From Pirellulaceae bacterium (lineage in GTDB: Bacteria > Planctomycetota > Planctomycetia > Pirellulales > Pirellulaceae): DNA of 64,000 bases. The notes beneath the pieces are model-generated. The model saw nothing but the letters and a program-made list of their open reading frames with translations. It had not been told where the DNA came from and made no database searches. Position 1 is the stretch's first letter, and each line of letters begins with the position of its first letter. The translations under genes and the position numbers were made by a program. This document shows, in pieces, positions 12,279 through 50,750 of the stretch. Where the stretch lies: NCBI GenBank assembly GCA_016784735.1, contig JADHUC010000007.1:1-64000 (forward strand), written 5' to 3'.

Positions 12279-12340
12279 CAGATAATCCATCCTGTAAACA
12301 ATGCGTATCGTCGTTGACTGCCAGTGCCGCTGCAGCGAAC

Positions 12341-23867: not shown

Positions 23868-26800
23868 CTAACCGGCCTTCTTGTCAGCCTGCCCATAGAC
23901 GATGCGGCACTTGACGATGCGTCGATTCAGCATATCCACGACGAACAGGCGGTCTTTCCAGACGGACAAGGCTGATATCGTACCGAAAGGAAGCTCGGGG
24001 TATGGATAGGCGCTTCCCTTGCCCTTGCAGTCCATATTGCCATAGCTTCCGAATTCGCCCGCCAACTTGCCCGTATCGCAGTCAATCACTTGAACACTGT
24101 ACTTGCCGGCGGCGTACAGATAGCCTTTGCCATCTAGCGTTTGGTGCTGCCGTGATGTAATGCAATGGCAAGGCGCAAAGATCGCTTCGGCCTGCCCAAT
24201 GTAGCCGTCCCACCGTCGGGTCCAGAGCGGCTGGCCGCCTGATGGTGCGAACCTTGAAAGAGCAAGATAGTCTTCCCACGGCCTTTCTGCGGGCCGGTGA
24301 AGCGCGTACAAGTATCCTTCGTCGTCGACTTGGAGACCTCGGACGCAGTCCAGCACGAGCAGGCCTTTCTTCGTCAGGTTCCCGTCGGCGTCGTATACGT
24401 TGACCTGCCGGCGCAAAGCGTTGTATGCACTGATGGGGCGCGATTTGGAATCGACGTCCACTTTCGCGACATAGTAGATGTTGCCTTGCCGGTCGACATC
24501 CATACCGTGATAGACGTCGTGCCAGAAATTAACCTGCATCGTATGATCGACGAACAAGGCATTCGTCCCCGTGGCCTTGAACGGTACCGGCTTCCCCTCG
24601 CGGTCGAAGCGGAGGATTTCCACCCCGGCCTTTCCCAGTTTCCACCGGTAGACCCTGCCGTCTTTTCCGAAGATGGAGTCGACAAACAGCGGCTCCTGCG
24701 AATAGCGGAAATGGCGATCGTGATTCAACGCCCCCCAAGGCGAGGTCATCTTCAAATCTCTGGCGTCAAAGAAGAAGGGCGGCCACTTCTTCAGTACGTT
24801 TCCCTCCTGGTCGATCCGGTAGACCGTTCCGTACTGTTTGATGCGGTAGTTGGAATCGTCTTCGACGTAGAGGTCGCCGGTTTGCGGGTCGATGTTCAGT
24901 AGCGGCTGGTTGCCGCTCTGCCTCGGATAGGAGAGCGTCTCGCCGTTGTCTATCCATTTGGCCTTCACCGAGAGATCGTCGCCCGCCAGTTGCACCAGGC
25001 TCCCCGGGCCGACACCATTAGCCACCCACACGAGCGGCGGCGATGCTCCGGCGTCCACCGCGATCTGCAGCACGTCCGGATCGAGTGGCTCGGAAACGGT
25101 CAGTAGTTCAGGCTCCCGCCAACTCTTGAGCTTGATCAGTTTCCTGGGGGCCTCCGGAGGCTTTCCAGCCGCGGCGACCAGAGCTTGGCGCAACGATGAC
25201 AACGTGCGTTCAACTCGCGGGTCCGCCGGTCTTTTCTCGGACGCAATGAGTACATAAAGGCTCTTTTCATGATCTATCGCCAACGCAGTTGGACCGTATA
25301 GTGGTTTCTTCTTTCCTTCGCGTTCATAATGCGTGATCGAAGCGATCGGGCGGCCGTCTTCTCCGAGTACTTGCAGGCGGTTGTTCCCGGCATCCGCCAC
25401 GATCAGATTGTCTCCGTCAAGGGCCAGCCCGCTCGGCTCGGCGAAGCCGCCGAACGAAACCGGTTTCTCGATCTTGACGTTCGAGTGCAGCTTACACTTC
25501 CATACGTAGGCTCCTCGCCCCTCGTCTCCGCTCGCCTCCCAGTGGTAGCTTCCCCCTTCTTCGCCCACCTCCCAATGGTATCCGTACTGCTTTGTCGGTC
25601 GGGAGCTTTGACCGGCCGAGACGTACAGAAGGCCGTCGGAATCAAAACAGAAGTAGGGATAGTGCAGCGAGTGAAAGGGCAAGTAATTCTTCAGATCCAG
25701 GACTTTCCAGAAGTTCTGGGCCAAGGCCGTGCTCTCGAACGGTTCATTTCGCCCCGGATGGTAAGCCGACGTCCATCCCTCCGGCGACAAGCTTCCATCG
25801 GGCCTCATTCTCCACAGTGTCCCCCGGTAGATATTGGACAGGATCAAGTCGCCGTTTGGCGCCAACGCTATCTTCTGAGGCAGGTTCCACCAAGCGCCGT
25901 ACATGGAGAGCGAACCGCAAAGCGTCTCGAACATCTTCGGGATGACCAAATCCGTCTCGCCTTCCCGTGCCATCTTCCCGCAAAGATCTCGCACGCTGGA
26001 TCGCGACAAGGTTGGGTTGAACGGCATAATCGTCCGCAAGTATTCTCCCTGCCTGTCGAAAACCCGCAGTTCAGGCGCCTCTCGAACGGGTCTCGGATCG
26101 GAGAGCAAGTAAAGCTCACCGTTCTTCTGGTCGACAGCGAGGTCCCAGATGATGCCCCGTGCATGAGGATCGCCCGCCAGCAGGAACCCCTCCAATTCCA
26201 GTTTCATCTCGCCGGTCGTCCCTGGATGAGCAGAACCGGGGCCAAGTTGTATCGTCTGCCCTTCCTCTTCGGCCAGAAACGCTCGCTTCGCTTCCGTTGT
26301 GGCGCGGTGCAACCAGTCAAGTTTCGCATAATCGGGTCGCGGAAGACTCTCCCGCGTCGGGATACGCGCCAGTACTCCCGCATCGCCGGGATTCGTGAAC
26401 GTGCCCTGCCAGCAATGCGCCTCACCTCCGGGCACACCGGACCGACGGACGTTGAATCCGATCTCCGACGCCAGCGTCTTGTTCTTGTTGAAGATGTCCA
26501 GCGGAAGAGCGAGTTCGGCAGCCCATGCATCCTTGGCGTTTGCCGCAGCGGACTTGAACTGAGGGTGCCAAGTCCGGTCGCACCACGGCGGGTCACATTC
26601 GTTGTAGGAGCAGGTAGCCTTCCCGCCGTCTTCGGCAATCCGGATCAGGTAGTACGAATTCCGATCGCCATTCGAGTCGATCAGCAGCTCGACGCTCTCC
26701 ACGCCCTTCAATGGCTCGCCAGGCTTGTCCTTGCCGTTGGCCGCATCGCTGCCTACACAGCTCACGCCAACATAAAGATGCTCCGCGTCGCACGAGATGA

Positions 26801-27275
26801 ATGCCTCAGTTGTCGACTTCGCTGGCTTTGCCGGCGTGATCGTGAACGGACCTGTTCTTGCAGCAGCTTTCCAGCTCGGCTCATCGAGTTTTCCGTCGAT
26901 CACTGGCTTCGAGTCGCTCACCGGCACATGCAAAACGGGTCCGGCGTGGGCGCCGCTTCGTTGCTCGGCGAACGCCTGCTTGGTCTCTTCAGCGCCCAGC
27001 AAAGCCACGAGCGTCGCGATACCCAAAAACGTCACTGCTGTGAACATCTTGCCCGTGGGCAAGCCCCAGAAGACACGCTGGTTACGGGGCTCCGATTCGT
27101 AACCCACTGGACGCGAGGCTTTGCCTCGCAAGAGCCGGCGGAGCCGGCAAGACAGTGCGTTCCCAGGCAGGAGCCTGGGAACGAGGTTTACGAAGATGTT
27201 CATAGCCGTTCCCCAAAACGCCGTCGTCGAAGCCAGGAAAACAGCGACCGTTTGCAATCTTGTCCGATAGATCAT
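23868..27275 (-). CDS. CBM9-like/NHL propeller protein, array paralog A
   Basis: About 1,135 residues. After the N-terminal region comes a CBM9-like (DOMON-type) carbohydrate-binding domain (PVIDGKLDEPSWKAAA ... NSYYLIRIAEDGG ... EIGFNVRRSG). A large six-bladed NHL-type propeller follows, with blades such as LIVADAGNNRLQVLGEDG and RVFDRQGEYLRTIMPFNPTL. The strongly conserved C-terminal block contains TLDGKGYLYAAGKYSVQVID, GEFGSYGNMDC and PELPFGTISAL. The start is ATG 27275: it overlaps the TGA of paralog B by 4 bp (ATGA) and has AGGAGG 9 nt upstream. Residues about 31-55 are encoded by a palindromic repeat (27113-27183) that splits the signal region. A second hydrophobic segment begins at Met77 (27047). 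No catalytic motif is recognised; exported glycan binding is likely. Confidence 0.8.
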   Translation of the reverse strand: MIYRTRLQTVAVFLASTTAFWGTAMNIFVNLVPRLLPGNALSCRLRRLLRGKASRPVGYESEPRNQRVFWGLPTGKMFTAVTFLGIATLVALLGAEETKQAFAEQRSGAHAGPVLHVPVSDSKPVIDGKLDEPSWKAAARTGPFTITPAKPAKSTTEAFISCDAEHLYVGVSCVGSDAANGKDKPGEPLKGVESVELLIDSNGDRNSYYLIRIAEDGGKATCSYNECDPPWCDRTWHPQFKSAAANAKDAWAAELALPLDIFNKNKTLASEIGFNVRRSGVPGGEAHCWQGTFTNPGDAGVLARIPTRESLPRPDYAKLDWLHRATTEAKRAFLAEEEGQTIQLGPGSAHPGTTGEMKLELEGFLLAGDPHARGIIWDLAVDQKNGELYLLSDPRPVREAPELRVFDRQGEYLRTIMPFNPTLSRSSVRDLCGKMAREGETDLVIPKMFETLCGSLSMYGAWWNLPQKIALAPNGDLILSNIYRGTLWRMRPDGSLSPEGWTSAYHPGRNEPFESTALAQNFWKVLDLKNYLPFHSLHYPYFCFDSDGLLYVSAGQSSRPTKQYGYHWEVGEEGGSYHWEASGDEGRGAYVWKCKLHSNVKIEKPVSFGGFAEPSGLALDGDNLIVADAGNNRLQVLGEDGRPIASITHYEREGKKKPLYGPTALAIDHEKSLYVLIASEKRPADPRVERTLSSLRQALVAAAGKPPEAPRKLIKLKSWREPELLTVSEPLDPDVLQIAVDAGASPPLVWVANGVGPGSLVQLAGDDLSVKAKWIDNGETLSYPRQSGNQPLLNIDPQTGDLYVEDDSNYRIKQYGTVYRIDQEGNVLKKWPPFFFDARDLKMTSPWGALNHDRHFRYSQEPLFVDSIFGKDGRVYRWKLGKAGVEILRFDREGKPVPFKATGTNALFVDHTMQVNFWHDVYHGMDVDRQGNIYYVAKVDVDSKSRPISAYNALRRQVNVYDADGNLTKKGLLVLDCVRGLQVDDEGYLYALHRPAERPWEDYLALSRFAPSGGQPLWTRRWDGYIGQAEAIFAPCHCITSRQHQTLDGKGYLYAAGKYSVQVIDCDTGKLAGEFGSYGNMDCKGKGSAYPYPELPFGTISALSVWKDRLFVVDMLNRRIVKCRIVYGQADKKAG
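27113..27183. repeat. Compound palindromic element inside paralog A
   Basis: Three successive dyads: GCGAGGC/GCCTCGC (27113-27129), two GCCGGC sites (27134-27148) and CGTTCCCAGGC/GCCTGGGAACG (27158-27183, 4-nt loop). The last is a common planctomycete intergenic hairpin type. Here it is read in frame as about 24 residues of the paralog A N-terminus; paralogs B, C and D have nothing matching. Confidence 0.85.
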
Positions 27276-30200
27276 CTTGATGCCTCCTCGTAAATGATAC
27301 GGCACTTGGCGATGCGCGCGTTCATCGCATCCACGACGAACAGCCAGTCTTTCCAGACGGCCAGGGTGGCGATCGTGCCGAAGGGAAGTTCCGGGTGCGG
27401 ATGGGCGCTGCCTTTGCCGAGACAGTCCATGTTGCCGTAGCTGCCGAATTCACCCGCCAGCCGGCCGGTTTCGCAATCGATGACCTGCACGCTGAACTTG
27501 TTGGCCACGTACAGATACCCTTTCCCGTCCAGCGCCTGGTGCAATCTTGGGGTCAGGCAGACGCAGTGGGTCTGCATCCACGCAACGCGGCCGGCGCCGC
27601 ATCCCAGGATGCCTTCCCATCGCCTCGACCAGATCGGCTCACCTCCGGAGGGACGGTACTTCGAGAGGTATAGACGGCGCGACGTCCAGTGCCCTTCGTC
27701 CGTTCTTGTCGGGCCGGCAGGACAGGAGAGAACGTACAGGCTTCCCTGTTCATCGACCAAAAGGCCTCGCGTGTCGATCAACTGGAGCAGATCTTGGCTG
27801 CGCGGATTTCCGTTTGAGTCGTAAACACCGACGCTGTTTCGCGAATTCACGTAATAGATGTTGCCCTGCGCGTCGACATCCATGCCGCGATAGACGAAAT
27901 GATTGCGTTGGGAACCCTTGGGACGTTGGTCGACAATCAGCGAATTGGTGCCGCCGACCTTGAAAGGAATCGGCTCCCCATCGCGGTCAAAGCGCAAGAT
28001 CTCCGCCGTCGTCTCCCCCCGTTGCCACCGGTACACCTTCCCGTCCTTCCCGAACAGCGAGTCAAGAAACAGTGGCTCGTCCGGATAACGAAAGACTGGC
28101 GTAGCATGAGCCTGGTCGTACACGGGTTCGCCGTCCCAGTTTGGCAGCTCGTTGTAGGGCAAGGGCGGCCATTTCTTCAAGACCTTCCCACTTTGGTCCA
28201 ACCTGTAAACCTCGCCATACACGCTTCGATGGTAGTACGAATCGTCTTCGACATAGAGCTGACCGGTTTGCGGGTCGATATTCAGGATGGGCACGTATCC
28301 GTATTGGCCCGGGCTCGACAATTTCTCTTCGTCGTCCTCCCATTTTCCTTTCCGCGACAGGTCGTCGCCCGCAAGCTGAAGCAGTGTTCCAAGTCCTGCG
28401 CCGTTGGCGATCCAGACCAGTGGTGGATTCACGCCACGGTCCACGGCAATCCGAATCGTATCCGCGTCGAGTGGTTCGGAAACCGCCAACAGGCGAGGTT
28501 CCTGCCAGCTCTTGAGCTTGATCAGTCTTCTCTTGGATTCGACCAGGGCGAGTACATACAGGCCTTGGTCGCGGTCCATCGCCAATGCGGTTGGATTCTG
28601 GAGCGGAACATCTTGCCCTTCTCGCGAGAAGCTTCTGATCGAGCCCACCAGACGACCGTCTTGTTCAAATACCTGCAAGCGGTTGTTGCCGGAATCCGCG
28701 ACGATCAGGTGATCGTCGATGCCCAGCCCGCAAGGTTGGTTGAAATGTGCGTCATCCGAGCCCGGTTGCCCTTCGAGACCCAAATGATTTCGCCCCATTT
28801 CCGTCGTCTTCGCCGTGCCGTTGAATCGGAAATCCCGGGCGCCCTCCAGCTTGGTGCCCTCCAACAGCCGATACTTCCAGACGGCTTCACCCTGACCACG
28901 GCCGGGCACCTCCCAGTTGATCGAGTAGAACTGGGACAACGCCGAGAACACGCCGCCGGAGACGTACAGATTCCCACTTCTGTCGAAACACATGTCCGGT
29001 TGGCAGAACTTGCCGTAAGAGAGATAGGGTTTCAGGCCCCTGGCATGCCAGGGGCCGACGAGCCAACCGGCGCTCTCGAAGGGTTCATTTCGCTGTGGAT
29101 TGTAGATCGACGTCCATCCCTCGGCCGGCAAGCTTCCGTCCGACCTCATTCTCCATAACGTTCTCTTGAACAAGTTGGACATGATCAGGTCGCCGTTCGG
29201 CGCGATCGCCAAGCTCTGTGGCAAGTGCCAATACTCGCCATACAGGCTGGGCTCGGTGCCGCACGTCTCGAACAGTTTCGGGACGATCAGCTCTACCATG
29301 CCCTCTGAAACCGTCTTGCGACACAGGTCCCTCACGCTGTCTCTGGGCAGTGTGGGATTGAAAGGCATGATCGTGCGAAGATACTTGCCCTGTCGGCCGA
29401 AGACCCGCAACTCGATGGCACTTTTCCTTCGGGCCGCCGAGAGCACGTAGAGTTCTCCCTTTTTCTCGTCCACGGCCAGATCCCAGATCAGGGCCCGCGC
29501 GTGAACATTACCGCCCAGCAGGAACTCCTCCAATTCGATTCGTACCTCGCCTGTCGTGCCGGGGTGAGAGGAACCGGGCCCGAGCGGTATCGGCCGTTGT
29601 TCCTCTGCGCCGGGCGAGGTGTCCGACGGCAAGTTGAAGCCCTGCCGATAACCGCCATCCAGTCGGTAGCACCCCGCGTAGCCGGAGAGCGGAGGAACCG
29701 GAAAACCCTCTCGAGCCGGGATGCCCGTGAGCAGGCCCGCCTCGGCGGGATTCGAGAACGCACCGCACCAACAGCAAGTTTGCTCGGCGCTCGCATCGTG
29801 GCGACGGATGTTGAATCCGATCTCGGAGGTCAGCGTCTTGGTCTTGTCGAAGATATCAAACGGTAACGAGAACTCTGCGCTCCATTCGTTTTCACCCACA
29901 GCCGTGCTGCATTGGAACCTCGGTTTCCGCCGGCTCCACGTCGGATCGTGCCACGGCGGAAAGTGTTCATTGTAAGATGCGTCGACGGTCCCCTTCTGAG
30001 TCAAGGTGATGAGGTAGTAGGAATTGCGATCATGGTTCGAGTCGATCAGTATCGCGACGTGTTCCTGTTTCGAGAGGTCCGGCGGTTCGGCCGGTTCCAT
30101 TTCCATGGGCGCGGGGCCACTCAACTCGCAGATGACCCCAACATGAAGCTGCTCAGCGTCGCGCAACACGAACGCCTCGGTCGTCGACTTTGCCGGCTTC

Positions 30201-30451
30201 CCCTGCTTCTGCATCAGGATGCCTGTCGTGGCTGCCGCCTTCCAACACGGTTCGTCAAGCCGTCCGTCGATCACCGGCGCGGAGTCGCTTACCGGCACCT
30301 GCAACACCGGCCTTATGTCGGGCCTGCTTTCCGCCGCCAGCGACCGGTCAAGGCACATGAATAAGCCCAGAATGGCAATTGCGATATGGATGTTCTGTAA
30401 CCGTTCCGTCCCGCGCCTGTCCGAGCGGCAACTACCTGTAATGATTAACAT
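27272..30451 (-). CDS. CBM9-like/NHL propeller protein, array paralog B
   Basis: A 1,059-residue paralog. Signal region NIHIAIAILGLFMCLDRSLAAE (about residues 20-41); CBM9-like domain from PVLQVPVSDSAPVIDGRLDE to EIGFNIRRHD (about 50-225). Then comes a conserved bridging block SHPGTTGEVRIELEEFLLGG (about 300-320), an NHL propeller (LIVADSGNNRLQVFEQDG, LYVLALVESKRRLIKLKSW) and the C-terminal block with HCVCLTPRLHQALDGKGYLY. Four Cys residues in the last 110 residues are shared with the other paralogs. GGGGG lies about 9 nt before ATG 30451. Its TGA overlaps the ATG of paralog A, so translation is probably coupled. It follows paralog C by 34 nt. Function inferred only as exported glycan-associated propeller. 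Confidence 0.85.
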   Translation of the reverse strand: MLIITGSCRSDRRGTERLQNIHIAIAILGLFMCLDRSLAAESRPDIRPVLQVPVSDSAPVIDGRLDEPCWKAAATTGILMQKQGKPAKSTTEAFVLRDAEQLHVGVICELSGPAPMEMEPAEPPDLSKQEHVAILIDSNHDRNSYYLITLTQKGTVDASYNEHFPPWHDPTWSRRKPRFQCSTAVGENEWSAEFSLPFDIFDKTKTLTSEIGFNIRRHDASAEQTCCWCGAFSNPAEAGLLTGIPAREGFPVPPLSGYAGCYRLDGGYRQGFNLPSDTSPGAEEQRPIPLGPGSSHPGTTGEVRIELEEFLLGGNVHARALIWDLAVDEKKGELYVLSAARRKSAIELRVFGRQGKYLRTIMPFNPTLPRDSVRDLCRKTVSEGMVELIVPKLFETCGTEPSLYGEYWHLPQSLAIAPNGDLIMSNLFKRTLWRMRSDGSLPAEGWTSIYNPQRNEPFESAGWLVGPWHARGLKPYLSYGKFCQPDMCFDRSGNLYVSGGVFSALSQFYSINWEVPGRGQGEAVWKYRLLEGTKLEGARDFRFNGTAKTTEMGRNHLGLEGQPGSDDAHFNQPCGLGIDDHLIVADSGNNRLQVFEQDGRLVGSIRSFSREGQDVPLQNPTALAMDRDQGLYVLALVESKRRLIKLKSWQEPRLLAVSEPLDADTIRIAVDRGVNPPLVWIANGAGLGTLLQLAGDDLSRKGKWEDDEEKLSSPGQYGYVPILNIDPQTGQLYVEDDSYYHRSVYGEVYRLDQSGKVLKKWPPLPYNELPNWDGEPVYDQAHATPVFRYPDEPLFLDSLFGKDGKVYRWQRGETTAEILRFDRDGEPIPFKVGGTNSLIVDQRPKGSQRNHFVYRGMDVDAQGNIYYVNSRNSVGVYDSNGNPRSQDLLQLIDTRGLLVDEQGSLYVLSCPAGPTRTDEGHWTSRRLYLSKYRPSGGEPIWSRRWEGILGCGAGRVAWMQTHCVCLTPRLHQALDGKGYLYVANKFSVQVIDCETGRLAGEFGSYGNMDCLGKGSAHPHPELPFGTIATLAVWKDWLFVVDAMNARIAKCRIIYEEASR

Positions 30452-30485
30452 CTGGTCCCCCTACGTTGAATGTTAACTGCCATCG

Positions 30486-33400
30486 CTATCGGTCATCGGG
30501 ATCAAGACGCGTCTCTCTCTTTGCCGGGTCGTAGATGATGCGGCATTTGGCGATGCGTCGATTCAGTGCGTCCACTACGAAGAGCTGGTCCTTCCATACG
30601 GAAAGAGCGGAGATCGTGCCGAACGGAAGCTCCGGGTGCGGAAACTTGCTACCCCTGCCTTGACAATCCATGTTACCATAGCTGCCAAACTCGCCGACCA
30701 GCCTTCCCGTCTCGCAGTCGATCACTTGAACACTGTATTTTCCGGCGGCGTACAGATACCCTTTTCCATCCAGTGCCTGGTGCAGTCGTGAGGTCAGGCA
30801 CATGCAATGCTCGGCATAGACGTCGACCTGTCCTATAACGCCGTCCCAACGTCTGGACCAGAGCGGCTCGCCTCCGGACGGAGGAAACTTGGAGAGAGTA
30901 AGATAGAAACACCAAGGCGGATTGGTAGGCTTGTAAAGAGCGTACAGGTTTCCCCGTTCATCCACCTGGATCCATCGTGTAGCGTTGAGATGGAGCAGGC
31001 CCTTCTTCTGCAGATTTCCATCGGAGTCGTAAACGTCCACTCGGTGCCGCACTTTGTTCTGCCCGGATACCTTGGCAACATAGTAGATATTGCCATGACG
31101 GTCGACGTCCATGCCGTGATAGATGTCGTGACGGTTTCGCGCGCCCCAGAGTTCAGTTTCCACAACCAATGCGTTTGTTCCGGTAGCCTCGAAAGGAATC
31201 GGTCTCCCCGAGCGATCGAAACGCAGGATCGCTATGTCGGTCTTCCTCAGTTTCCATCGGTATACCCTTCCGTCCTTCCCGAAGATGGAATCGATAGACA
31301 GCGGTTCGTCCGGATTGCGGAAATGGCCGTCCCGATCCGTGATCCCGAAAGTATCGGGCTCTTTCTTGCCCGTGGTGTGGAAGAACACGGGGTCCCATCT
31401 TTTCAATATCGTACCGCCTTGGCTGAGCTGATAGACGGTACCGTACATGTTCGAGCGGTAGTGCGAGTCGTCTTCGATGTAGATGTGGCCGGTCTGCGGG
31501 TCGATGTTCAGGATGGGGAGCCCTCCGTATTGTGCCGGGTTGGACAACTTCTCGTCGTCGTCCGCCCATTTTCCCTTCACCGCGAGGTTGTCACCCGCGA
31601 GTTGAAGTAATGTCCCCAGGCCCGCGCCGTTGGCGACCCAAGCCAGCGGAGGGTCCACGCCCGAGTCCACGGCGATCTGGAACGTCTCCGCGTCGAGCGG
31701 TTCGGAGACGGCCAAGAGACGAGGTTCCTGCCAGGAGTCGAGCTTGATTAGTCTTCTCTCGGACTCAACCAGTGCGAGCACGTAGAGGTGCCGCTGGCGG
31801 TCGATCGCCAAGGCGGTTGGATTCCCCAGGGGCACGTCCCGGCCTTCCTGCTCGAAGTCTGTTATTGAGGCGGCCAGACGGCCGTCCCCTTCGAATATCT
31901 GCAGGCGGTCATTACCGGAATCCGCCACGATCAGAAAATCGCCGTCGGTGGCCAGCCCGCAAGGAGAGTCGAAGTGGGCATTGTCCTGCCCAGGCTTCCC
32001 CACAACGCCGAGAGAGTTTCGCGCCTTGGGAACCTCATGATCGCCGTTGATTCGAAAATCCATGACATGCTCGATCTTGACGCCCTCGAGTAAACGCAGT
32101 TTCTGGATCACGGATGATTTCCCATGTCCCTTTACCTCCCACCACCGGCCGAACAACCTGGTCTGGCGCGATTCCAAGCCATCCGAGACGTACAGATTGC
32201 CGTTTTGCTGAAGAGCGATGTAAGGGTAGCGCAACGAGGCATGAGGGAGGTAGTTCTTCAGACTGTGAGCATGCCAACGGTCCACCACCCAATCGGCGCT
32301 CTCGAACGGTTCATTTCGCCCCCGATGGTAAACCGATGTCCAGCCCTCGGGGGACAAGCTTCCGTCAGGCCGAATCCTCATCAACGTCCCTTTGTACATG
32401 CTCGACAGGATTAGATCGCCGTTCGGCGCCACTGCTATCTTCTGCGGCAGGTTCCACCAGGCGCCATACATGGTAAGCTCGCCGCCGGAGACCTCGAACA
32501 GTTTCGGGACGACCAGTTCCACGCCGCCTTCCGATGCCGTTTTCCGGCAGAGGTCCAGCACGCTCGCGCGGGGCAAGTTGGCGTTGAACGGCATGATGGT
32601 TCGCAGATACTTTCCCTGCCGGTCGAATACTCGCACATCGGGGACACCTCTCACCGTCCTGGGGTCCGAGAGCACGTAAAGCTCCCCCGTCTTCTCGTTG
32701 ACGGCAAGGTCCCAGATGATGGCCCGCGCGTGAACATTGCCGCCTAGCAGGAAACCCTCCAACTCCAGTCGGACCTCTCCCGTCGTGCCAGGATGAGTGG
32801 AACCGGGCTCAATCCGTATCCTCTGCCCTTCCTGTCCAGCCAGAAATGCTATTTTCGCTTTCGTCGGAGGAGGGCCGGCCCAGTTGTAGCCGTGCTCGGC
32901 ATACTCGGGCTTCGGCAGTCGCTCTCGCGCCGGCAAGCCTCCGAGGATCCCGGCACTAGCCGGATTCCAAAACTCACCACTCCAGCAATGGGTCTCGCCA
33001 TGTCGCATGTCGTAGCGACGGACATTGAATCCAAACTCGGAGGTGAGCGTTCGGTTCTTGTGAAACATGGTGAAGGGAAGCGAGAACTCGGCGGTCCAGC
33101 CATTCGCATCTGTTGCCGCGGCGGACTCGAAACGGGGTTGCCACGTACGGTCCATCCATGGCGGCCAGTGCTCTCTGTAGGATGTTTCGACTTTTCCGTA
33201 TCGAGTCAAGATGACGAGGTAATATGAATTCCGGTCGTGGTTGGAGTCGATCAGTAGCGCCACGTGTTCCTGTTTCGAGATGTCTGGCGGTTGAGCGGGC
33301 TTCTTCGCGTCCGCTCCCTGGCCGCTCACTCCGCAGATGACCCCAACATGAAGCTGCTCAGCGTCGCGCAACACGAACGCCTTGGTCGTCGACTTTGCCG

Positions 33401-33656
33401 GCTTCCCCTGCTCCAACATCAACGGGCCTGTCGCGACCGCCTCCCTCCAGCACGGTTCGTCAATCTGCCCGTCGATCACCGGCGCGGACTCGCTTACGGG
33501 CACCTGCAACACCGGCCTATTGTTGGGCCTGCTTTCCGCTGCCGCCGCCCGGTCAAGGCACAGCAGTGAGCCCAAAATGGCAACCGCGATATGGATGTTT
33601 CGTTGCGGTTCCGTCGTTCGTCTGTTCAAGCGGCGGCTGCCTGTAATGATTAACAT
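30486..33656 (-). CDS. CBM9-like/NHL propeller protein, array paralog C
   Basis: About 1,056 residues and the closest relative of B by its N-terminus (MLIITGSRRLNRR against MLIITGSCRSDRR) and of D by its C-terminus (both end in DPxDR). It has the same order: signal, CBM9-like domain (PVIDGQIDEPCWREA, NSYYLVILTRYGK), GTTGEVRLELEGFLLGG bridge, NHL blades (LIVADSGNDRLQIFEGDG) and the conserved Cys-containing tail. ATG 33656 has AGGAGACGAG directly upstream; the frame extends to 33698 but that start lacks a ribosome site. It is first in the C-B-A operon, so the promoter should lie in 33657-33715. The mosaic similarity to B at one end and D at the other suggests gene conversion. Confidence 0.85.
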   Translation of the reverse strand: MLIITGSRRLNRRTTEPQRNIHIAVAILGSLLCLDRAAAAESRPNNRPVLQVPVSESAPVIDGQIDEPCWREAVATGPLMLEQGKPAKSTTKAFVLRDAEQLHVGVICGVSGQGADAKKPAQPPDISKQEHVALLIDSNHDRNSYYLVILTRYGKVETSYREHWPPWMDRTWQPRFESAAATDANGWTAEFSLPFTMFHKNRTLTSEFGFNVRRYDMRHGETHCWSGEFWNPASAGILGGLPARERLPKPEYAEHGYNWAGPPPTKAKIAFLAGQEGQRIRIEPGSTHPGTTGEVRLELEGFLLGGNVHARAIIWDLAVNEKTGELYVLSDPRTVRGVPDVRVFDRQGKYLRTIMPFNANLPRASVLDLCRKTASEGGVELVVPKLFEVSGGELTMYGAWWNLPQKIAVAPNGDLILSSMYKGTLMRIRPDGSLSPEGWTSVYHRGRNEPFESADWVVDRWHAHSLKNYLPHASLRYPYIALQQNGNLYVSDGLESRQTRLFGRWWEVKGHGKSSVIQKLRLLEGVKIEHVMDFRINGDHEVPKARNSLGVVGKPGQDNAHFDSPCGLATDGDFLIVADSGNDRLQIFEGDGRLAASITDFEQEGRDVPLGNPTALAIDRQRHLYVLALVESERRLIKLDSWQEPRLLAVSEPLDAETFQIAVDSGVDPPLAWVANGAGLGTLLQLAGDNLAVKGKWADDDEKLSNPAQYGGLPILNIDPQTGHIYIEDDSHYRSNMYGTVYQLSQGGTILKRWDPVFFHTTGKKEPDTFGITDRDGHFRNPDEPLSIDSIFGKDGRVYRWKLRKTDIAILRFDRSGRPIPFEATGTNALVVETELWGARNRHDIYHGMDVDRHGNIYYVAKVSGQNKVRHRVDVYDSDGNLQKKGLLHLNATRWIQVDERGNLYALYKPTNPPWCFYLTLSKFPPSGGEPLWSRRWDGVIGQVDVYAEHCMCLTSRLHQALDGKGYLYAAGKYSVQVIDCETGRLVGEFGSYGNMDCQGRGSKFPHPELPFGTISALSVWKDQLFVVDALNRRIAKCRIIYDPAKRETRLDPDDR

Positions 33657-33715
33657 CTCGTCTCCTGTGTTGAATATTGAGATGTCACTAGGCCACATTT
33701 CTCGCTAGTTACACA

Positions 33716-33772
33716 AGCCCGAAGCGCAAGCGAGGGACGGCGGGCGGCTTATCCTCGCTCGCGCGTCGGGCT
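33716..33772. repeat. Palindromic intergenic element (AGCCCGACGCGCGAGCGAGG family)
   Basis: Inverted repeat with 20-bp arms at 33716-33735 and 33753-33772 (two mismatches), 17-nt loop, upstream of paralog C. A perfect 21-bp member of the same family is at 58912-58971. Read on the minus strand it gives the SPTRERG tail often appended to planctomycete ORFs. Confidence 0.85.
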
Positions 33773-34331
33773 GGTGTCAACACACCGTCGCGATTTCCCC
33801 GTCTGGTGAGAAATGCGGCTTAGCCCAAACGGCACGTCCCCGAATGTAGATACCGGAGCGTGAAGGTGTGAGCGAGCCGTCCAGCCCGACGCCGCATGAT
33901 ACATCAGCCGGCAACGGGAATCAAAAACCCGTCGGGCGTCGTTCTCCGAAACGATTCCCGACCACTCCCGCCCCCTCCCGTGGAACACCATCCCACCAGG
34001 AGCGACTCGGACAGTGCGCGGCGTCTCAACAATCTCGCCAACGAGGCCCAACTCGTCAATAATTAGACCCGTCCATCCGTCCCGTTTATCTGCCTTCGTT
34101 TATCTGCCTCCGATCCATAGGTTCTGCCGGTTGGTCCAGGCGGCGGGTTGTTGGGCGATTGAACGCTCGGCTACAATAGATATGGGCAGACAGCCGTGGA
34201 CAGTAGGGAGTAAATCGGCATGTGTCGACCAGCGTCGTCACGAGTGACTCGCTGGCAGTGTTACCGTGCACGCAAGCTCGTGTCGGGCAACAGCCGGTCG
34301 AGTAGCGCCAGGCAGGAAGAATGGTAGGCAT
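33773..34331. other. Non-coding stretch between repeat and toxin-antitoxin pair
   Basis: About 560 bases with no credible gene. It contains a short direct duplication (GTTTATCTGCCT twice near 34083-34110) and scattered low-complexity sequence, and it looks like degraded DNA inserted between paralogs D and C. A minus-strand frame at 33749-34051 ends in the repeat and lacks any recognisable domain or ribosome site. Confidence 0.4.
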
Positions 34332-34580
34332 ATGCCGTGGTATGACGTAATTTGGAATTACGAACCTGGCGGCAACGTGGAACATGTCGCCGAGCATGGA
34401 CTGACGCCGGAAGAGGTGGAAGCCGTCATTTGCAGTCCTCTGGAGAAGAAAATCAGCCGCAGTTCCGGTCGGCCTGTGGCGACCGGCTACACTCCGGACG
34501 GGCGCCTCATTCTGGTCGTTTACGAGGAATTCGACGAAATCACGATCTATCCGGTGACGGCCTTCGAGGTGGAAGGCTAA
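34332..34580 (+). CDS. BrnT/DUF4258-like toxin
   Basis: An 82-residue protein beginning MPWYDVIWNYEPGGNVEHVAEHG. The pattern NVEHVAEHGLTPEEVEAVI, then RPVATGYTPDGRLILVVYEEF, then ITIYPVTAFEV, is that of small RelE-fold toxins of the BrnT/DUF4258 type (helix with His, then a four-strand sheet). Such toxins cleave mRNA. The assignment is by pattern only. A ribbon-helix-helix antitoxin gene follows after 29 nt, which is the brnT-brnA order. The start is chosen where the fold begins; the frame opens at 34266 without support. Confidence 0.65.
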   Translation: MPWYDVIWNYEPGGNVEHVAEHGLTPEEVEAVICSPLEKKISRSSGRPVATGYTPDGRLILVVYEEFDEITIYPVTAFEVEG

Positions 34581-34609
34581 ATCCCGATCGAGAGGAAAGG
34601 AAACATCCC

Positions 34610-34906
34610 GTGACTCACGAAATACGCCAGCGAATCCTCCGCCCAGCGACGCCGGAGGAGAAGGAACGCCATCAGCACATTCGGCAGCAAGTCGAACAGG
34701 AGGCGTCCGAGTTACAGCAGTGGGCGCGAGAGGCGGCGACTCGGCATCGAGACCGCGTGACCGTTGGGACCGTATTCACGGCGCAAGAGGCGGATGTGCT
34801 CGAAGCGATCGACGACTATGCGGCCAAGCACGCGCTGGCAAACCGCAGCGCCGTGGTCCGCGAAGCATTGTCGCGCCTCCTGGAAGTCGAGATTACCAAG
34901 TCCTGA
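34610..34906 (+). CDS. Ribbon-helix-helix antitoxin
   Basis: A 98-residue protein starting at GTG 34610, with AGAGGAAAGG about 9 nt upstream. The N-terminal 50 residues are highly charged and helical (toxin-wrapping type). The C-terminal 40 (VFTAQEADVLEAIDDYA, NRSAVVREALSRLLE) form a ribbon-helix-helix/CopG-like DNA-binding domain. It would neutralise the upstream BrnT-like toxin and repress the pair. The gene was hidden because its real start is GTG. Confidence 0.65.
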   Translation: MTHEIRQRILRPATPEEKERHQHIRQQVEQEASELQQWAREAATRHRDRVTVGTVFTAQEADVLEAIDDYAAKHALANRSAVVREALSRLLEVEITKS

Positions 34907-35009
34907 GCGCACCCAAGGGCATGGTTGAGGCGTCGATTTCTCGGCGCTCGCAAGTCGGTGGGCAACAAAACGGTTCCTGGACCTTTTCCGCCGTCTTGGA
35001 GGAGGTTTG

Positions 35010-35109
35010 ATGAAACTGACCACACAACGATTTGCCGACTACCTTCGCAAGAACGAGGGGAAAGAGTATCAGGTCGAAGGCACGAACTTCTGCTACTTGA
35101 CTGCAACCG
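35010..35109 (+). pseudogene. N-terminal gene fragment abutting paralog D
   Basis: ATG 35010 has a strong GGAGGAGG ribosome site and encodes MKLTTQRFADYLRKNEG and KEYQVEGTNFCYLTA before colliding with the 3' end of paralog D on the other strand. Beyond 35109 the frame is only antisense of D. I do not recognise the family. It looks like the first ~33 codons of a gene cut off by a rearrangement that joined it to the D stop codon. Confidence 0.45.
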
Positions 35110-38100
35110 CTATCGATCCTCGGGATCGACACGCATCCTTCTGTTTGCCGGGTCGTAGACAATGCGGCACTTGGCGATGCGCCGATTCATTACGTCTACC
35201 ACGAAGAGCCTGTCTTTCCATACGGCCAGGGCGGAGATCGTTCCGAAAGGTAGCTCGGGATGCGGGTGCGCGCTTCGGTGGCCCAAACAATCCGCGTTGC
35301 CGTAGCTCCCGAATTCGCCCACCAGCCGTCCGGTCTCGCAATCAATGACCTGAACGCTGAACTTGCCGGCCAGGTAGAGATACCCTTTGCCATCCAGGGC
35401 CTGGTGTATCCTTGAGGTCCTGCACATGCAGTAGTAGTCCGATATTCCCCCGTGGCCTTCGACGCCTATCCAAGGTCTCGACCAAATTGGTTTCCCGCCG
35501 GATTTGGGGAACTTGGTGACGCAGAGACGGAAGTCAGGGCCCTCGTAAAGAACGTAGATGTCGCCGTGGTCATCTATCAGTACCCCCCGAGGTACATTGA
35601 CCTGGAGCAGTCCCTTGGTCTTCAAGTTGCCGTCGGGACCGTACAGGTCCACGGCCGTCTTGTTGGCCACATAGATGTTGCCCAGCCGGTCGACGTCCAT
35701 ACCCCGATAGATCTTGTGACGATTTGATCCATTCCATTGGGTAGGCTCGACCATCAAGGCGTTCGACCCGGTGGCTTCGAAAGGGATGGGCTTGCCGGCG
35801 CGGTCAAAACGCAGGATCGATATCTCGTCCTTCGTCAGTTGCCACCGGTAGATCTTTCCGTCCTTGCCGAACAGGCAATCGATAAACGGTATTTCTTCAG
35901 GACAACGGGTATGGCGATCCAAATCGGGTATCCCATACTGATCGCTCTGGTGCTTGCCGTTTGCATGATAGAACACCGGCGGCCATTTCTTCAGTATCTG
36001 GCCGCTTTGGTCGATCCGCAGAACGGTCCCGTGCATTCTGTGGCGGTAGTGCGAATCGTCCTCGACATAGACGTGGCCGGTTTCCGGGTCAATATTCAGG
36101 ATCGGGTGGCCGCCGTATTGATCCGGATTGGACAGCTTTTCGTCGTTGCCCCATGAGGTCCAGGTCGGCACGACTTCCGAGGACCCCCATTGGCCCTTTT
36201 GCGAGAGGTCATCGCCGGCCAGTTGCAGCAGGGTCCCCGGCCCGGCACCGTTGGCCACCCAGACCAACGGTGTCGCCACCCCGGCGTCCACGGCGATCTG
36301 ATGGGTCTCCACGTGCAAGGGCTCGGAAATAGCCAGCAACTCCGGCGTCCGCCAACTCTTGAGCCTGAGCAATCGGCGGGGGCCCTTTGCCGCCTCCTGG
36401 ACGAGTACATAGAGACTGCCGCCGTCGGTGGTCAAAGCAGTAGGCCACTGCAAGGGGACTTGCTTGCCTTCGCGCTCATAGTGCCGTATCGTGGCGGCCA
36501 GACGGCCGCTTGATTGGAATACTTGGATGCGGTTATTACCTGAATCCGCCACGATCAGAAAATCGCCGTCGACAGCCAGCCCGCAAGGACCGTTGAACTG
36601 CGTGTCGGCTTCTCCTGGATTCCCAGCCACGCCGAGACTGTTTTGCGGCTCGGCAAGTTCTTCGACCCCGTCATATCGAAAATCCCTGGCGTGCTCGATT
36701 CTGACGCCCTTGCCCAGGCGAAACTTCCGCACGGCCGCCCCCGCCGGGCCTTTTCCTGCCACATTGAATTCAAATTCTTGGCCGAGTTGTCGAGTCAGGG
36801 TCGCGCGCACCCCCGCACCATCGGAGATATACAGTCGGCCGCCGTCGTCAAAACACATGTACGAGTAGGAAGTCGAGACTCCCGGGACATACCGTTTCAC
36901 CCACCGTCCACCCATCCATGCCCCATATCCACCCCCACTGATCCAGCAGGCGGTCTCGAAGGGCTCATTTCGTCCGGGATTGTAGATTGAAGTCCATCCC
37001 TCGCGGGGCAGGCTTCCATCAGGCCTCATTCGCCACAAGGTCCCCAGATAGATACCCGACATGATCAGGTCGCCATTCGGGGCCAGTAGCATCTTCTGCG
37101 GCAGGTTCCACCATTCTCCATACAGCGAGAACTCACACTGGCACTGAATCTGGAACACCTTGGGCATGACCAACTCGACGCCATCTTCCACGGCCGTATT
37201 GCGGCAGAGATCTTTCACATCGGCGCTCGGCAACGTGGGATCGAATGGCATGACGGTTCGCAAATACCGGCCCTGCCGATCGTAAACCCGCAGCTCGCTA
37301 TAGCTCTTGATCCTGGGCACGGAGAGCACATACAGCTCCCCGGTCTTGTCGTCCACCGCCAGATCCCAAATCGCGGCCCGCGCGTGGTGGTCGCCTCCCA
37401 ACAGATATCCTTCCATCTCGATCCGCACCTCGCCTGTCGTGCCGGGATGAGCGGAGCCGGGCCCAAGGCGAATCGGCTCCTGGGTGGCAATCTCTGTCGG
37501 CGGGAGGTTGAACAACGATCGACGATAACTTGGTACGCGACGCTCGTTTGGATCAACCTCGTTTTGATAGTGGACCAGCGGAAAACTCCGCGAGGGCATC
37601 CCCCTGAGTGTTCCGGCGTCATGGGGATTCAAAAAGGGGTCAAGTACCGTTGCCGGAACGGCCCGCAGGGTGCTTCGCACAGCGGTACCTGACCCCTTTT
37701 TGGGCCATGCCCAACAATGGATCTCGCCGCGCGCGTCTCGCCGGCGGATGTTGAACCCGAATTCGGGAGTCAGCGTCCGGTTTCGATGGAAACTGTTGAA
37801 AGGAATCGACACTTCCGCCGTCCAGCCGTTCTCGCCTTGAGCCACGACGGACGTGAACTGCAACCGCCACAGATCCTGCCATGGCGGCCAGTGCTCCCGG
37901 TATTCCCCCGGCGGCGCCCATCGCCCTTGCTTACGCTTGGTTGGCGTGACGGTGATGAGATAGAACGAATTGCCATCGCCGTTGGAATCGACCAGGAGCG
38001 TGAGTTCCTCTTGTTCGGATTCTTTATCTGGTGCTGCTTTGGCACCCATTGTCTCGTTCATGCCGCAGACGACGCCCACGTAAAGATGTTCGGCATCACG

Positions 38101-38361
38101 CGCCACGAACGCCTCGGTCTTTGAGTCCGCCGGCTTTCCATCCACCCTCTTCAGCGGTCCGGTACTTGCAGCCTGCTTCCAAAACGGCTCGTCGAGTTTT
38201 CCGTCGATCTCCGGCTTGGAGCCGATCTCGGGAACTCGCAAGACCGGCCGGTCGCCGCTCTGCTGCGCCGCGGGCAAACGCGACGGCAGTGCCGCAGACG
38301 CAGACGCAATAATCAAAACGCCATAAGCCGCAGCCGTTCTGGCTCTTCTACGAGGCACCAT
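35110..38361 (-). CDS. CBM9-like/NHL propeller protein, array paralog D
   Basis: About 1,083 residues. Signal AAAYGVLIIASASAALPSRL; CBM9-like domain (KPEIDGKLDEPFWKQAA, NSFYLITVTPTKRK); bridge GTTGEVRIEMEGYLLGG; NHL blades (LIVADSGNNRIQVFQSSG); conserved C-terminal block (IHQALDGKGYLYLAGKFSVQ, NADC, PELPFGTISAL). ATG 38361 has AAGGGAG about 8 nt upstream; GTG 38370 is too close to it. Within the CBM9 domain about 22 extra residues (roughly KKGSGTAVRSTLRAVPATVL) are encoded by a palindromic element at 37631-37701, where paralogs B and C have only a 5-residue loop. It is separated from the C-B-A operon by about 1.4 kb of inserted DNA. Confidence 0.82.
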   Translation of the reverse strand: MVPRRRARTAAAYGVLIIASASAALPSRLPAAQQSGDRPVLRVPEIGSKPEIDGKLDEPFWKQAASTGPLKRVDGKPADSKTEAFVARDAEHLYVGVVCGMNETMGAKAAPDKESEQEELTLLVDSNGDGNSFYLITVTPTKRKQGRWAPPGEYREHWPPWQDLWRLQFTSVVAQGENGWTAEVSIPFNSFHRNRTLTPEFGFNIRRRDARGEIHCWAWPKKGSGTAVRSTLRAVPATVLDPFLNPHDAGTLRGMPSRSFPLVHYQNEVDPNERRVPSYRRSLFNLPPTEIATQEPIRLGPGSAHPGTTGEVRIEMEGYLLGGDHHARAAIWDLAVDDKTGELYVLSVPRIKSYSELRVYDRQGRYLRTVMPFDPTLPSADVKDLCRNTAVEDGVELVMPKVFQIQCQCEFSLYGEWWNLPQKMLLAPNGDLIMSGIYLGTLWRMRPDGSLPREGWTSIYNPGRNEPFETACWISGGGYGAWMGGRWVKRYVPGVSTSYSYMCFDDGGRLYISDGAGVRATLTRQLGQEFEFNVAGKGPAGAAVRKFRLGKGVRIEHARDFRYDGVEELAEPQNSLGVAGNPGEADTQFNGPCGLAVDGDFLIVADSGNNRIQVFQSSGRLAATIRHYEREGKQVPLQWPTALTTDGGSLYVLVQEAAKGPRRLLRLKSWRTPELLAISEPLHVETHQIAVDAGVATPLVWVANGAGPGTLLQLAGDDLSQKGQWGSSEVVPTWTSWGNDEKLSNPDQYGGHPILNIDPETGHVYVEDDSHYRHRMHGTVLRIDQSGQILKKWPPVFYHANGKHQSDQYGIPDLDRHTRCPEEIPFIDCLFGKDGKIYRWQLTKDEISILRFDRAGKPIPFEATGSNALMVEPTQWNGSNRHKIYRGMDVDRLGNIYVANKTAVDLYGPDGNLKTKGLLQVNVPRGVLIDDHGDIYVLYEGPDFRLCVTKFPKSGGKPIWSRPWIGVEGHGGISDYYCMCRTSRIHQALDGKGYLYLAGKFSVQVIDCETGRLVGEFGSYGNADCLGHRSAHPHPELPFGTISALAVWKDRLFVVDVMNRRIAKCRIVYDPANRRMRVDPEDR
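37631..37701. repeat. In-frame palindromic element inside paralog D (AAAAAGGGGTCAGGTACC type)
   Basis: A 71-bp hairpin with 19-bp arms (37631-37649, 37683-37701; one T/C difference) lying entirely in the coding sequence, between conserved HCW and NPxxAG of the CBM9-like domain. AAGGGGTCAGGTACC hairpins are, from my knowledge, typical RAYT/REP substrates. The reading frame is maintained. Confidence 0.88.
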
Positions 38362-38419
38362 CGCCTTCACTCCCTTCCGTTTGGCCGCTGGGCTTGGAAG
38401 AGTCCTGCGCCCATCGTCA

Positions 38420-39032: not shown

Positions 39033-41933
39033 TCATTCCAATTCCGGTCCCTGAATTCGCTCGCCCCTCAACTGCCGCCCTTGGTCTTCATGGTTGAAGG
39101 TCCCGTAAAACAACGCGTTGGTATCCATCCAGGTGATCAGCCGTTCCCAGTCTTGTGCGGCCAATTCGACGTCGTGATGGCCCTCGACCAGGAGCGTCGT
39201 CAATTTGCTGCCACGGGCTCCGTATTGGTCCGGGCTCGTCCGCGGCGGCCCATTGCTGTCGCGGTATGGAACACGGCCAACCAGCGCATTGTAGGACTTG
39301 GAGAATTTTGCCTCTGGTTCTCCCGTGAGAAAAACGTCCCCGCTTTGCTCCTTCGGCATCTCGGCCTTGTGACACCGAACGCAGTGCCGGTCCAGCACGG
39401 GCTGGACGAGCAACGGATAGCTGAACGGCAAGGAACCGTCAGGGCCGGGCGTGATTACCGAAGGGGGTCGACCAAGCGCCATGGCTACCGGGCTCGATGG
39501 TGATGCAGAAGGAGATGTCATGCCGTGTTCGTGGCAACCGACGCAAGCGACGGTTTCGCCGGGCTGGGCATACGTCAGACTGTACATCGTCTGGACCGCC
39601 CGGCCCCGTTCGTCCAACGCCTGGAACATCACGGCCTTGCGCGCCGGGACGCGGAAGTGGGCCGAGCCATCCTCCTCGACCGGCACCGTGCCCAAAACCT
39701 GTTTGCCCGGGGCCCCACGAGCAGCACCGGGAGACGGGTTGCCCATATTTGGCGTGGTTTTGGGCAGCACCTGGATGACGCGAAGCTGAGTGATGCGCTC
39801 CGTGGGAAGCGGCGTCCAACTTTCGTACACGTTTTGGAGCAAGAACGTCCCCTCGGCCTCGCCTTCGGCCGCAAGCGCGGAAGGCAGGACCGGCGGTTTG
39901 TCTCGCTGCCGCAAGGGGATCGGCCAGGAACTCGATATGTTCAAGTCCCGGTACAGCAACTCCTTGTTGCCGAAGCAGTCCACGAGGTAGAGCCCGAACA
40001 GATGCGGAGGGTTCTTGTACGGCTCGCCGCGAAGTGTGTCAAACGTGTAGGCCGCCAGACAGTATTTCTCCGAAAGCGGATAGGGGCTGCGGTAACAGTG
40101 CCCAGGCCAGCGGATCGTTTGGAGTCGTTCCATAACCTCGGGGGGCCATCTTCCACCCCATCGGCTCCGCACGGGAAACTCAGATTCGTAGAAGGGCACG
40201 TCGGGCGTGAAACGCGTGAGCGGTTTAAGGTCGTCGATGCCCTTGCTCACGTCCACCAGGACGATCGAACCGGCGGGCACGGCGTGGTGGGCGCAGGCCG
40301 TACCCATGACGCGTTTGGAACCGGGGATCGGCTGCGCCTCCCAGATTCCCATGGGGTTCAGCGTGCTGTTGCCGTAGTAGATGCGCACGTCGCTGCCATC
40401 GGGCTTGACGGTCCAGAGATGCTGGAAGTTGACGGCGCGGCGATCCACATAATCCCAGCGCGTGTACAGGACGCGGCCATCGTGCAAGACGGCCGGATCG
40501 TATTCGTGCGTGTCGTGAAAGGAAACCACTCGCGGGTCGCTGCCGTCGGCCTCGCAAATCGCCATAGTGTGGGTGGGACAAGGTCCTTTGCCACAGCGAT
40601 GGAAGCCGCCGCGGCGACTGGAGCAGAAGGCGATCTTGCCGTTCGGCAGGAAGCACGGTGAATGATCGTCGTAGGGGCCGTCGGTGAGCTGCGCGAAATT
40701 GCCGCCATCCGCGTCCACGGAGTACAGGTGAAAATGCCGGTCCGGAAACTGGCCATAGGTGGTCGGGTCCGACTCCGCCTCGCTGTACGCGAAAAGGACG
40801 CGCCGCCCGTCGTAGGATACCTCAGGAGACATGTAGGCGCCTTGAGGCAGCTGGTCTCGGACCAGCGGCCGAAGACGCATCGACCGGCCCGGTTCTTCCA
40901 GCACAAAGACGCCGCCGCCCGGCCGCGCGCAGTCTCCGTGGAATGAAACGATGTGCGAGCTGTAAGCCCCACCCGGCACGTCCTGGACGAACACCACGGG
41001 GCCGGTATCCGCCAATGGGTTCTTCAGGGTGATACGGCGACGCACATGGTGCACTTCTCGCCACAGCTTCTCCCAGGCCACTTCGGCCGCCTTCTCATCC
41101 GCGGCCAGTTTTTTCCATTCCGAACGCAAACTTCCCCACTCGGCCGTTTCCGCGTCTATCTGATGCCCGCCGCTGTGGAGGTCCTCGATCAAATGATCTC
41201 CCCCCTCGAACATCCGCTCGACGGCCGCCGCATACGTTACCGAGTCTCGCGGCGTGCCGATGCCATCCTGCATGCGCCAGTCCCATTCGATCATCACCTG
41301 TTCCATGGCCGGCCGCAGGGACGGATGTATCGGCGGGGGGCAGGTAACCTGCTTCGGCGCGAGCGCCAGGGCGATCGGCGTGGAACTACCAGCCGTTTCG
41401 ATGCGAATTTCCCGCCAGCGGACCGCAACCTCGGCTCCGGAACCACGCGAAATCAGTCGCGCGAGCGGTTCGCCACTTGATGCCGCGGCGTCGACGCTCA
41501 ATTCAACCGCCTCGCCGCTGCGCAACGTCCGTGCCACGTTTTTGCCTTCGACTGCAATTTCGACCTCTGCCGCTTCGCCAGCTACCAGATCCACGCGAGC
41601 GGAAACCGAAAACGCGCCGGCCTGTTTGGGAAGCGGTATGCCCACTTCCGCCGTTTCATCCTGCCCGACGCACGCCACCACGGCGCCGGCATAGGCCAGG
41701 ACTGCGACCTGAGGGCCTGTGCCGTCCGCCATCAGCACGAAGCCAGCCACTTCGCTGCTCTTGTTGGTGACGGGCTTGCCGTCGGCGACAAACTGTAGGG
41801 CGTCGAGAGGGATGCTCTTCGGCTGACCCACCGCCTCCGCACCCGGCGAACGCGGCGGCCGGGCAATCCCGATGGATACCATGGTCGAAATCACAAAAAG
41901 CGCAACCGTCCGCGATCTTGTCCAAGAGGCCAT
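39033..41933 (-). CDS. HzsA-related di-heme protein H2
   Basis: About 966 residues. Signal TVALFVISTMVSIGIA, then a beta-sandwich N-terminal extension (about residues 30-190) not present in H1. Next is the TolB-like propeller (DGRRVLFAYSEAE, PNGKIAFCSSRRGG, DGRVLYTRWDYVD, AQPIPGSKRVMGT). The VPVEEDGSAHFRVPARKAVM block precedes two heme c motifs, CVGCH at 797 and CVRCH at 851, and the chain ends with WMDTNALFYGTFNHE. The residue four after the first motif's His is Met, not Tyr. AGGAG lies 8 nt before ATG 41933. It is the last gene of a Gfo/Idh-DUF1080-sulfatase-H2 operon (gaps 30-51 nt), so it probably works in the same extracytoplasmic degradation process. Confidence 0.82.
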   Translation of the reverse strand: MASWTRSRTVALFVISTMVSIGIARPPRSPGAEAVGQPKSIPLDALQFVADGKPVTNKSSEVAGFVLMADGTGPQVAVLAYAGAVVACVGQDETAEVGIPLPKQAGAFSVSARVDLVAGEAAEVEIAVEGKNVARTLRSGEAVELSVDAAASSGEPLARLISRGSGAEVAVRWREIRIETAGSSTPIALALAPKQVTCPPPIHPSLRPAMEQVMIEWDWRMQDGIGTPRDSVTYAAAVERMFEGGDHLIEDLHSGGHQIDAETAEWGSLRSEWKKLAADEKAAEVAWEKLWREVHHVRRRITLKNPLADTGPVVFVQDVPGGAYSSHIVSFHGDCARPGGGVFVLEEPGRSMRLRPLVRDQLPQGAYMSPEVSYDGRRVLFAYSEAESDPTTYGQFPDRHFHLYSVDADGGNFAQLTDGPYDDHSPCFLPNGKIAFCSSRRGGFHRCGKGPCPTHTMAICEADGSDPRVVSFHDTHEYDPAVLHDGRVLYTRWDYVDRRAVNFQHLWTVKPDGSDVRIYYGNSTLNPMGIWEAQPIPGSKRVMGTACAHHAVPAGSIVLVDVSKGIDDLKPLTRFTPDVPFYESEFPVRSRWGGRWPPEVMERLQTIRWPGHCYRSPYPLSEKYCLAAYTFDTLRGEPYKNPPHLFGLYLVDCFGNKELLYRDLNISSSWPIPLRQRDKPPVLPSALAAEGEAEGTFLLQNVYESWTPLPTERITQLRVIQVLPKTTPNMGNPSPGAARGAPGKQVLGTVPVEEDGSAHFRVPARKAVMFQALDERGRAVQTMYSLTYAQPGETVACVGCHEHGMTSPSASPSSPVAMALGRPPSVITPGPDGSLPFSYPLLVQPVLDRHCVRCHKAEMPKEQSGDVFLTGEPEAKFSKSYNALVGRVPYRDSNGPPRTSPDQYGARGSKLTTLLVEGHHDVELAAQDWERLITWMDTNALFYGTFNHEDQGRQLRGERIQGPELE

Positions 41934-41984
41934 CTTGAGGGCTCCTTTCACAGTCATTCCACTGGCTTCGCTGGATACCAACGC

Positions 41985-43430: not shown

Positions 43431-43481
43431 TCTGTAGTCCTTCGCACAGCCGGAGTCGCCGCCGGTTTTCGCCGAACACCT

Positions 43482-44198: not shown

Positions 44199-44228
44199 CG
44201 TCTCATACCTTTCGGGGCTGCAAGAGCG

Positions 44229-45542: not shown

Positions 45543-45733
45543 TCGAGTGCTCCCACGATTGGCCCGCAACTGTAACATTGTGCAGGCAGCCATTCACACA
45601 CGCTCTCTGGCGGCCGTTCACGGTCAATCATACTTGATTGCCTAGCCGACAACATCAAGGGATGCAGAAATCCTTGCTCCAACTCGGTGACCGGACCCAG
45701 CGCCCGACGCGGAACGAATCAGCGAATCAGACA

Positions 45734-48418: not shown

Positions 48419-48481
48419 GGTGATTGTCGAATCCTCGTATGCGAACGTTCCGGGAATGGAAGTCCTCGATGCGGCCCAGGT

Positions 48482-50674: not shown

Positions 50675-50750
50675 CCTGAGGCTCCTTCTACTGCGGCGGT
50701 CCGATGATCGCCAATAGAAACGCTTTCCGATTTCGTTCACGCATGGTTCT

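Follow-up and report, generated by a model that had tools for sequence, protein, structure and literature searches.

Four tandem CBM9-like/NHL-propeller paralogs of a Pirellulaceae bacterium and their likely place in a planctomycete superfamily with a CxC-GxYGNxD tail

In a 64,000-nucleotide stretch of a Pirellulaceae genome (hereafter the window; contig C112 of an assembly of 11.66 Mb in 450 contigs, 79% complete), we found four tandem genes, A to D, encoding full-length paralogs which, judged by profile searches, are a CBM9-bearing branch of a larger superfamily that shares a conserved C-terminal tail. The explanation that we tentatively prefer is that these are exported multi-domain glycan-recognition propellers that would serve polysaccharide breakdown, with copies that may have diversified in ligand. 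The four genes lie as follows.

23868 to 27305, minus strand: gene A, paralog with CBM9-like domain and predicted NHL double propeller, 1145 codons from GTG
27272 to 30451, minus strand: gene B, paralog, 1059 aa
30486 to 33698, minus strand: gene C, paralog, 1070 aa, the sole copy with CBM9_1 above the Pfam cut-off
35110 to 38370, minus strand: gene D, paralog, 1086 aa, GTG start with an ATG at 38361

All four genes span 1,059 to 1,145 codons and can be aligned end to end, with whole-length identities to A of 56% for B, 60% for C, and 54% for D. By these alignments the similarity is full-length and far above chance, and the earlier note's picture of a four-paralog tandem of CBM9-like and NHL-propeller proteins stands, while its count of four genes for the family is too low: A fifth copy sits on another contig (G000:C154:1-2964, 987 codons, truncated by the contig edge). 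The tight C-B-A packing with an ATGA overlap, also proposed there, holds for one junction only. The likely start of A is the ATG at 27275, which shares an ATGA overlap with the stop TGA of B (27274-27272), whereas C and B do not overlap and are 34 nt apart. D and C are separated by 1,411 nt, and two small ORFs in this gap (34266-34906, plus strand) look like a BrnT-like toxin and a ribbon-helix-helix antitoxin at sub-threshold Pfam scores. The leader of A contains a dispersed repeat of ~150 bp (27040-27190, minus strand) with 20 matches in the genome, short partial ones included; translation from the GTG or the ATG may run through this element at the N-terminus of A, and the Met preceding MFTAVTFLGIATLVALLG may be the true start.

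The domain order of the encoded proteins was read from Pfam and PDB profile matches, and three segments are referred to repeatedly below.

32997 to 33476, minus strand: CBM9-like domain of C, family profile matching Thermotoga Xyn10A CBM9-2 (E = 6.8e-6)
30510 to 30846, minus strand: tail of C, residues ~951-1063, predicted last two NHL blades, with CxC (C965, C967) and GxYGNxD (1005-1011)
23886 to 24215, minus strand: tail of A, residues 1031-1140, with the same CxC and GxYGNxD signature

Each protein begins with a signal-like leader and is probably exported, and in each the NHL repeat exceeds its Pfam gathering score (35.5 to 48.3 bits against 20, 4/4 proteins). Reading the blade core by eye, we counted ~12 blades from residue 325 of C to the C-terminus, which would most simply form two six-bladed propellers. 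Known NHL propellers (PF01436; the PknD sensor, TRIM71/Brat/Thin, and the designed Pizza) have the blade motif and the inter-blade junction in common with A to D, but they have 6 blades rather than the ~12 of our motif count, and they differ from the superfamily in having neither a CxC at a fixed distance before GxYGNxD nor an N-terminal CBM9-like or FlgD-Ig-like domain. NHL blades are likewise shared with ScyF, ScyD, and ScyE of scytonemin loci (NCBIfam NF035926, NF033206); a closer relation to ScyF/ScyE was rejected, as the match is local and reaches 37 to 52 bits against an equivalog cut-off of 350. At the N-terminal side, CBM9_1 scores 28.3 bits in C, above the Pfam cut-off of 23.4, and 23.1 bits in D, slightly under it; in A and B the domain was assigned through alignment to C. 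The profile of this domain has a single PDB match, over the domain length, to CBM9-2 of Thermotoga maritima Xyn10A (1I82, also solved as 1I8A and 1I8U). CBM9-2 clamps its ligand between Trp71 and Trp175 (PMC8280721). In our alignment the family does not keep this pair: The position equivalent to Trp71 is non-aromatic, most copies carry Phe at that of Trp175, others Ser or Thr, and the family instead has an invariant PPWxD..W motif of its own. We therefore call the domain CBM9-like rather than a proven CBM9, and glycan binding by the classical CBM9 mode appears doubtful.

The last 110 residues had been described as near-invariant and more similar than the rest of the protein. They are indeed the top-scoring 110-column window of the alignment, a value that 1% of windows attain; yet their pairwise identity is 68 to 76% with a mean of 73%, two other blocks come close (residues 723-821 of A, 70%; residues 352-461 of A, 68%), and the earlier wording goes too far. 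A profile of the tail matches designed and natural NHL propellers (Pizza, PknD, TRIM) with E values down to 1e-19, which identifies the tail, at the level of sequence, as two NHL blades, the last of the propeller. The number of conserved tail cysteines, given as four in the earlier note, depends on the depth of comparison: Five are invariant in A to D (C1046, C1048, C1076, C1093, and C1133 of A), four are kept in the close family, and the CxC pair alone persists in the superfamily, where it begins 39 to 40 residues before a GxYGNxD motif near the C-terminus, as in A to D.

Upon searching with this tail block, as the earlier note had recommended, we uncovered a superfamily present in 17 genomes of a 392-genome Planctomycetota sample (E ≤ 1e-12), this genome included. 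Carriers usually hold several copies, many of them at least eight by the same threshold, and most members have a FlgD-Ig-like domain ahead of the tail propeller. Four further proteins of the same genome (contigs C352, C212, C430, and C63) share the tail without a CBM9-like domain, three of them with a FlgD-Ig-like N-terminus whose Pfam score is at or under the cut-off. Together with loci L105 to L112, these FlgD-Ig and NHL proteins resemble A to D in tail signature, length, and frequent same-strand tandem arrangement, but they differ in their N-terminus, and their tails are 28% identical to those of the CBM9 type. Members of the superfamily are habitually arranged in tandem: In nine of the 16 other carriers, two or more copies share a strand and lie within 5 kb, with up to four in a run. 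At L105, L107, and L108, three to four proteins of the FlgD-Ig/NHL type, each with the CxC tail, follow one another on the same strand, and two of the L107 copies have 4 to 5 Cys in ~900 residues, two of which form the CxC. Since the 53-member superfamily alignment was chosen by the CxC pattern, CxC conservation was counted on 67 tails that were found by profile and cover the site, and 63 of these have both cysteines. The 53-member alignment is well conserved at columns of G, D, P, Y, V, R, N, W, K, A, and F besides the CxC pair; it contains no conserved His, no Cys column beyond CxC, and few conserved acidic positions other than the NHL-type Asp. Hence, no ordinary catalytic set is visible, and the CxC has no conserved partner; the pair would then either form a local disulfide or rely on other ligands to complete a site. 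Between and within distant superfamily groups, too, no block is better conserved than the tail, and its conservation is therefore older than the A-D tandem. Because the tail consists, by its profile matches, of two NHL blades that are conserved behind different N-terminal domains too, the shared partner suggested in the earlier note becomes superfluous, although such a partner may still exist.

Close relatives are sparsely distributed. A pattern scan of 84,980 species genomes yielded ten close-relative loci; organism names among the related loci are planctomycetal, for example Pirellulales, Rhodopirellula, and Rubripirellula. The CBM9-like domain is present in one group (L035 and L040 to L042), another (L036 to L039) starts at the propeller without it, and L043 and L044 are fragments. 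Of 60 searched genomes, the organism's own was the only one with full-length close homologues, the other 59, all close relatives, having none, and a plasmid search returned only weak CBM9 matches, in Gemmatirosa. The L039 homologue lies on a 4.5-kb contig of a metagenome-assembled genome labelled Deltaproteobacteria but clusters within planctomycete sequences, and may reflect transfer or misbinning.

The surroundings of A to D are of a polysaccharide and sugar type, and they also contain proteins of the di-heme HZS_alpha kind.

39033 to 41981, minus strand: HZS_alpha di-heme protein of a different subfamily, without Cys-rich tail, directly upstream of D
41985 to 50740, minus strand: sulfatase, 3-keto-disaccharide hydrolase, GFO/IDH/MocA oxidoreductase, FG-GAP protein, and DUF4838/GH67-N protein
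54405 to 57674, plus strand: HZS_alpha di-heme protein, candidate linked gene, with a C-terminal TCGx(4)CxCLSCWVRK tail

More than one GFO/IDH/MocA oxidoreductase surrounds A to D, and the CBM9-less homologue L036 is flanked by two sulfatases, an esterase, and a PSCyt/PSD-domain protein. An ORF at 50864-54070 (minus strand) is an unusual fusion in which a PQQ-type propeller follows a methyltransferase-like domain at the N-terminus.

On these grounds we lean, with some reserve, toward glycan recognition. In this view a CBM9-like beta-sandwich would come after the signal-like leader, with two propellers behind it. Faces of the sandwich and of the propellers probably keep polysaccharide or its fragments bound for sulfatases and sugar-oxidising enzymes whose genes lie in this region; B, C, and D, as a local expansion, would widen the ligand set. 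The tail would supply blades 11 and 12, with the GxYGNxD junction and a DxxNRR blade core closing the second propeller, and the CxC pair directly before blade 11 would probably form a local structural disulfide made after export. This reading draws on the NHL repeats of all four proteins, the CBM9_1 match of C, and the exclusive match of the domain profile to Xyn10A CBM9-2; on the resemblance of the tail to NHL propellers and the purifying selection acting on it (see below); on the sulfatases and sugar enzymes in the window and beside L036; on the lack of an ordinary catalytic set across the 53 members; and on the recurrence of tandem arrays of divergent copies in other carriers. Against it speak the loss of Trp71 and Trp175, the relatives L036 to L039 that do without CBM9 altogether, and the fact that propellers can be enzymes despite few conserved residues.

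The strongest rival would make the propeller itself an enzyme acting on carbohydrates, such as a polysaccharide lyase or a glycosidase, for which the CBM9-like domain would serve as targeting module, the copies cutting different linkages. Lyases and glycosidases of the propeller type exist, the genes lie among sulfatases and sugar enzymes, and invariant polar residues are numerous in the close family. Nevertheless, neither a Pfam or NCBIfam enzyme family nor a solved enzyme matched over the protein body, and at superfamily depth a conserved His is absent, as is any acidic cluster outside the NHL structural positions. An enzymatic propeller is rather unlikely, if still a serious competitor.

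A second alternative takes the CxC as a redox-active or metal site and places the proteins, together with di-heme HZS_alpha, in extracytoplasmic electron transfer or sugar oxidation. It is favoured by the near-universal CxC, by the lack of a conserved partner Cys, and by gene order: At L040, L041, and L042, an HZS_alpha gene encoding two CxxCH sites and a TCGx(4)CxCLSCWVRK end lies upstream of a single-copy CBM9-NHL gene, ~80 bp away at L040, 0.6 kb at L042, and 2.8 kb at L041, where one 551-codon ORF intervenes. The window holds four HZS_alpha di-heme proteins (9885-12290, 39033-41981, 54405-57674, and 60559-63558), among which only that at 54405-57674 has this tail; it is the orthologue of the L040 to L042 proteins and lies on the opposite strand to D, 16 kb away. 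A similar TCxxxxCxCxxCWVR tail occurs in HZS_alpha proteins on contigs C26 and C365 of the same genome and in another genome (G022), yet no tail-superfamily gene was found on these two contigs or in the G022 genome. Cys-tailed HZS_alpha thus exists without a propeller gene, so the linkage is suggestive only, and a strict pairing of the two genes is weakened. Furthermore, L036-type homologues have no neighbour of this Cys-tailed HZS_alpha type, and CxC pairs can be purely structural. According to a recent study, HZS homologues outside anammox bacteria are missing key hydrazine-synthesis residues, and none of the top matches has a different confirmed function (PMC12758564). We consider a redox or metal role improbable, and marginally more so a wider version in which an exported double-propeller superfamily would act through such a CxC site, with HZS_alpha, in extracytoplasmic polysaccharide oxidation and would have diversified by tandem duplication and N-terminal swapping.

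There is an even slimmer chance that A to D are structural or cell-surface scaffolds without glycan specificity, such as building blocks of the planctomycete envelope. Exported-looking, large, repeated, multi-copy proteins would suit such a role, but the CBM9-like domain and the sugar-enzyme neighbours do not, and a distribution so patchy that none of the 59 other close relatives has a full-length close homologue is unlike that of a core envelope protein.

The earlier note had further proposed that gene conversion between the tandem copies keeps the tail alike, for which its rank as the most conserved window and a B-D tail dS of 0.85, below the other B-D segments, can be cited. In the other five of six pairs, however, the tail dS (NG86) is 1.2 to 1.5, near saturation and within the range of other segments, four-fold-site divergence is ~0.5 as elsewhere, and dN is low. 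Because dN is low at normal dS, the pattern is that of purifying selection on the tail rather than homogenisation. Separate trees of the CBM9-like domain, the propeller, and the tail, a comparison that had also been recommended, each group A together with the copy on C154 and foreign orthologues, apart from B, C, and D, although some inner branches are weakly supported; their agreement argues against a homogenised tail, as does the conservation of the same block in distant genomes. Gene conversion as the cause is thus largely refuted and very improbable, although one small conversion event in the B-D tail may have occurred.

Returning to the exported glycan-recognition propellers that we prefer, the parts of these proteins are of known kinds, whereas the superfamily signature and the tandem habit are apparently undescribed: The open-licence papers searched hold no description of either or of the family's role, in agreement with the earlier note's view of that role. 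Planctomycetes degrade complex sulfated polysaccharides by means of many exported proteins that lack annotation. A superfamily with a simple signature, many copies per genome, and tandem arrangement offers a handle on part of this unannotated content, with the CxC as a single testable site, and it illustrates that tail conservation within a tandem family can reflect an old structural constraint rather than gene conversion.
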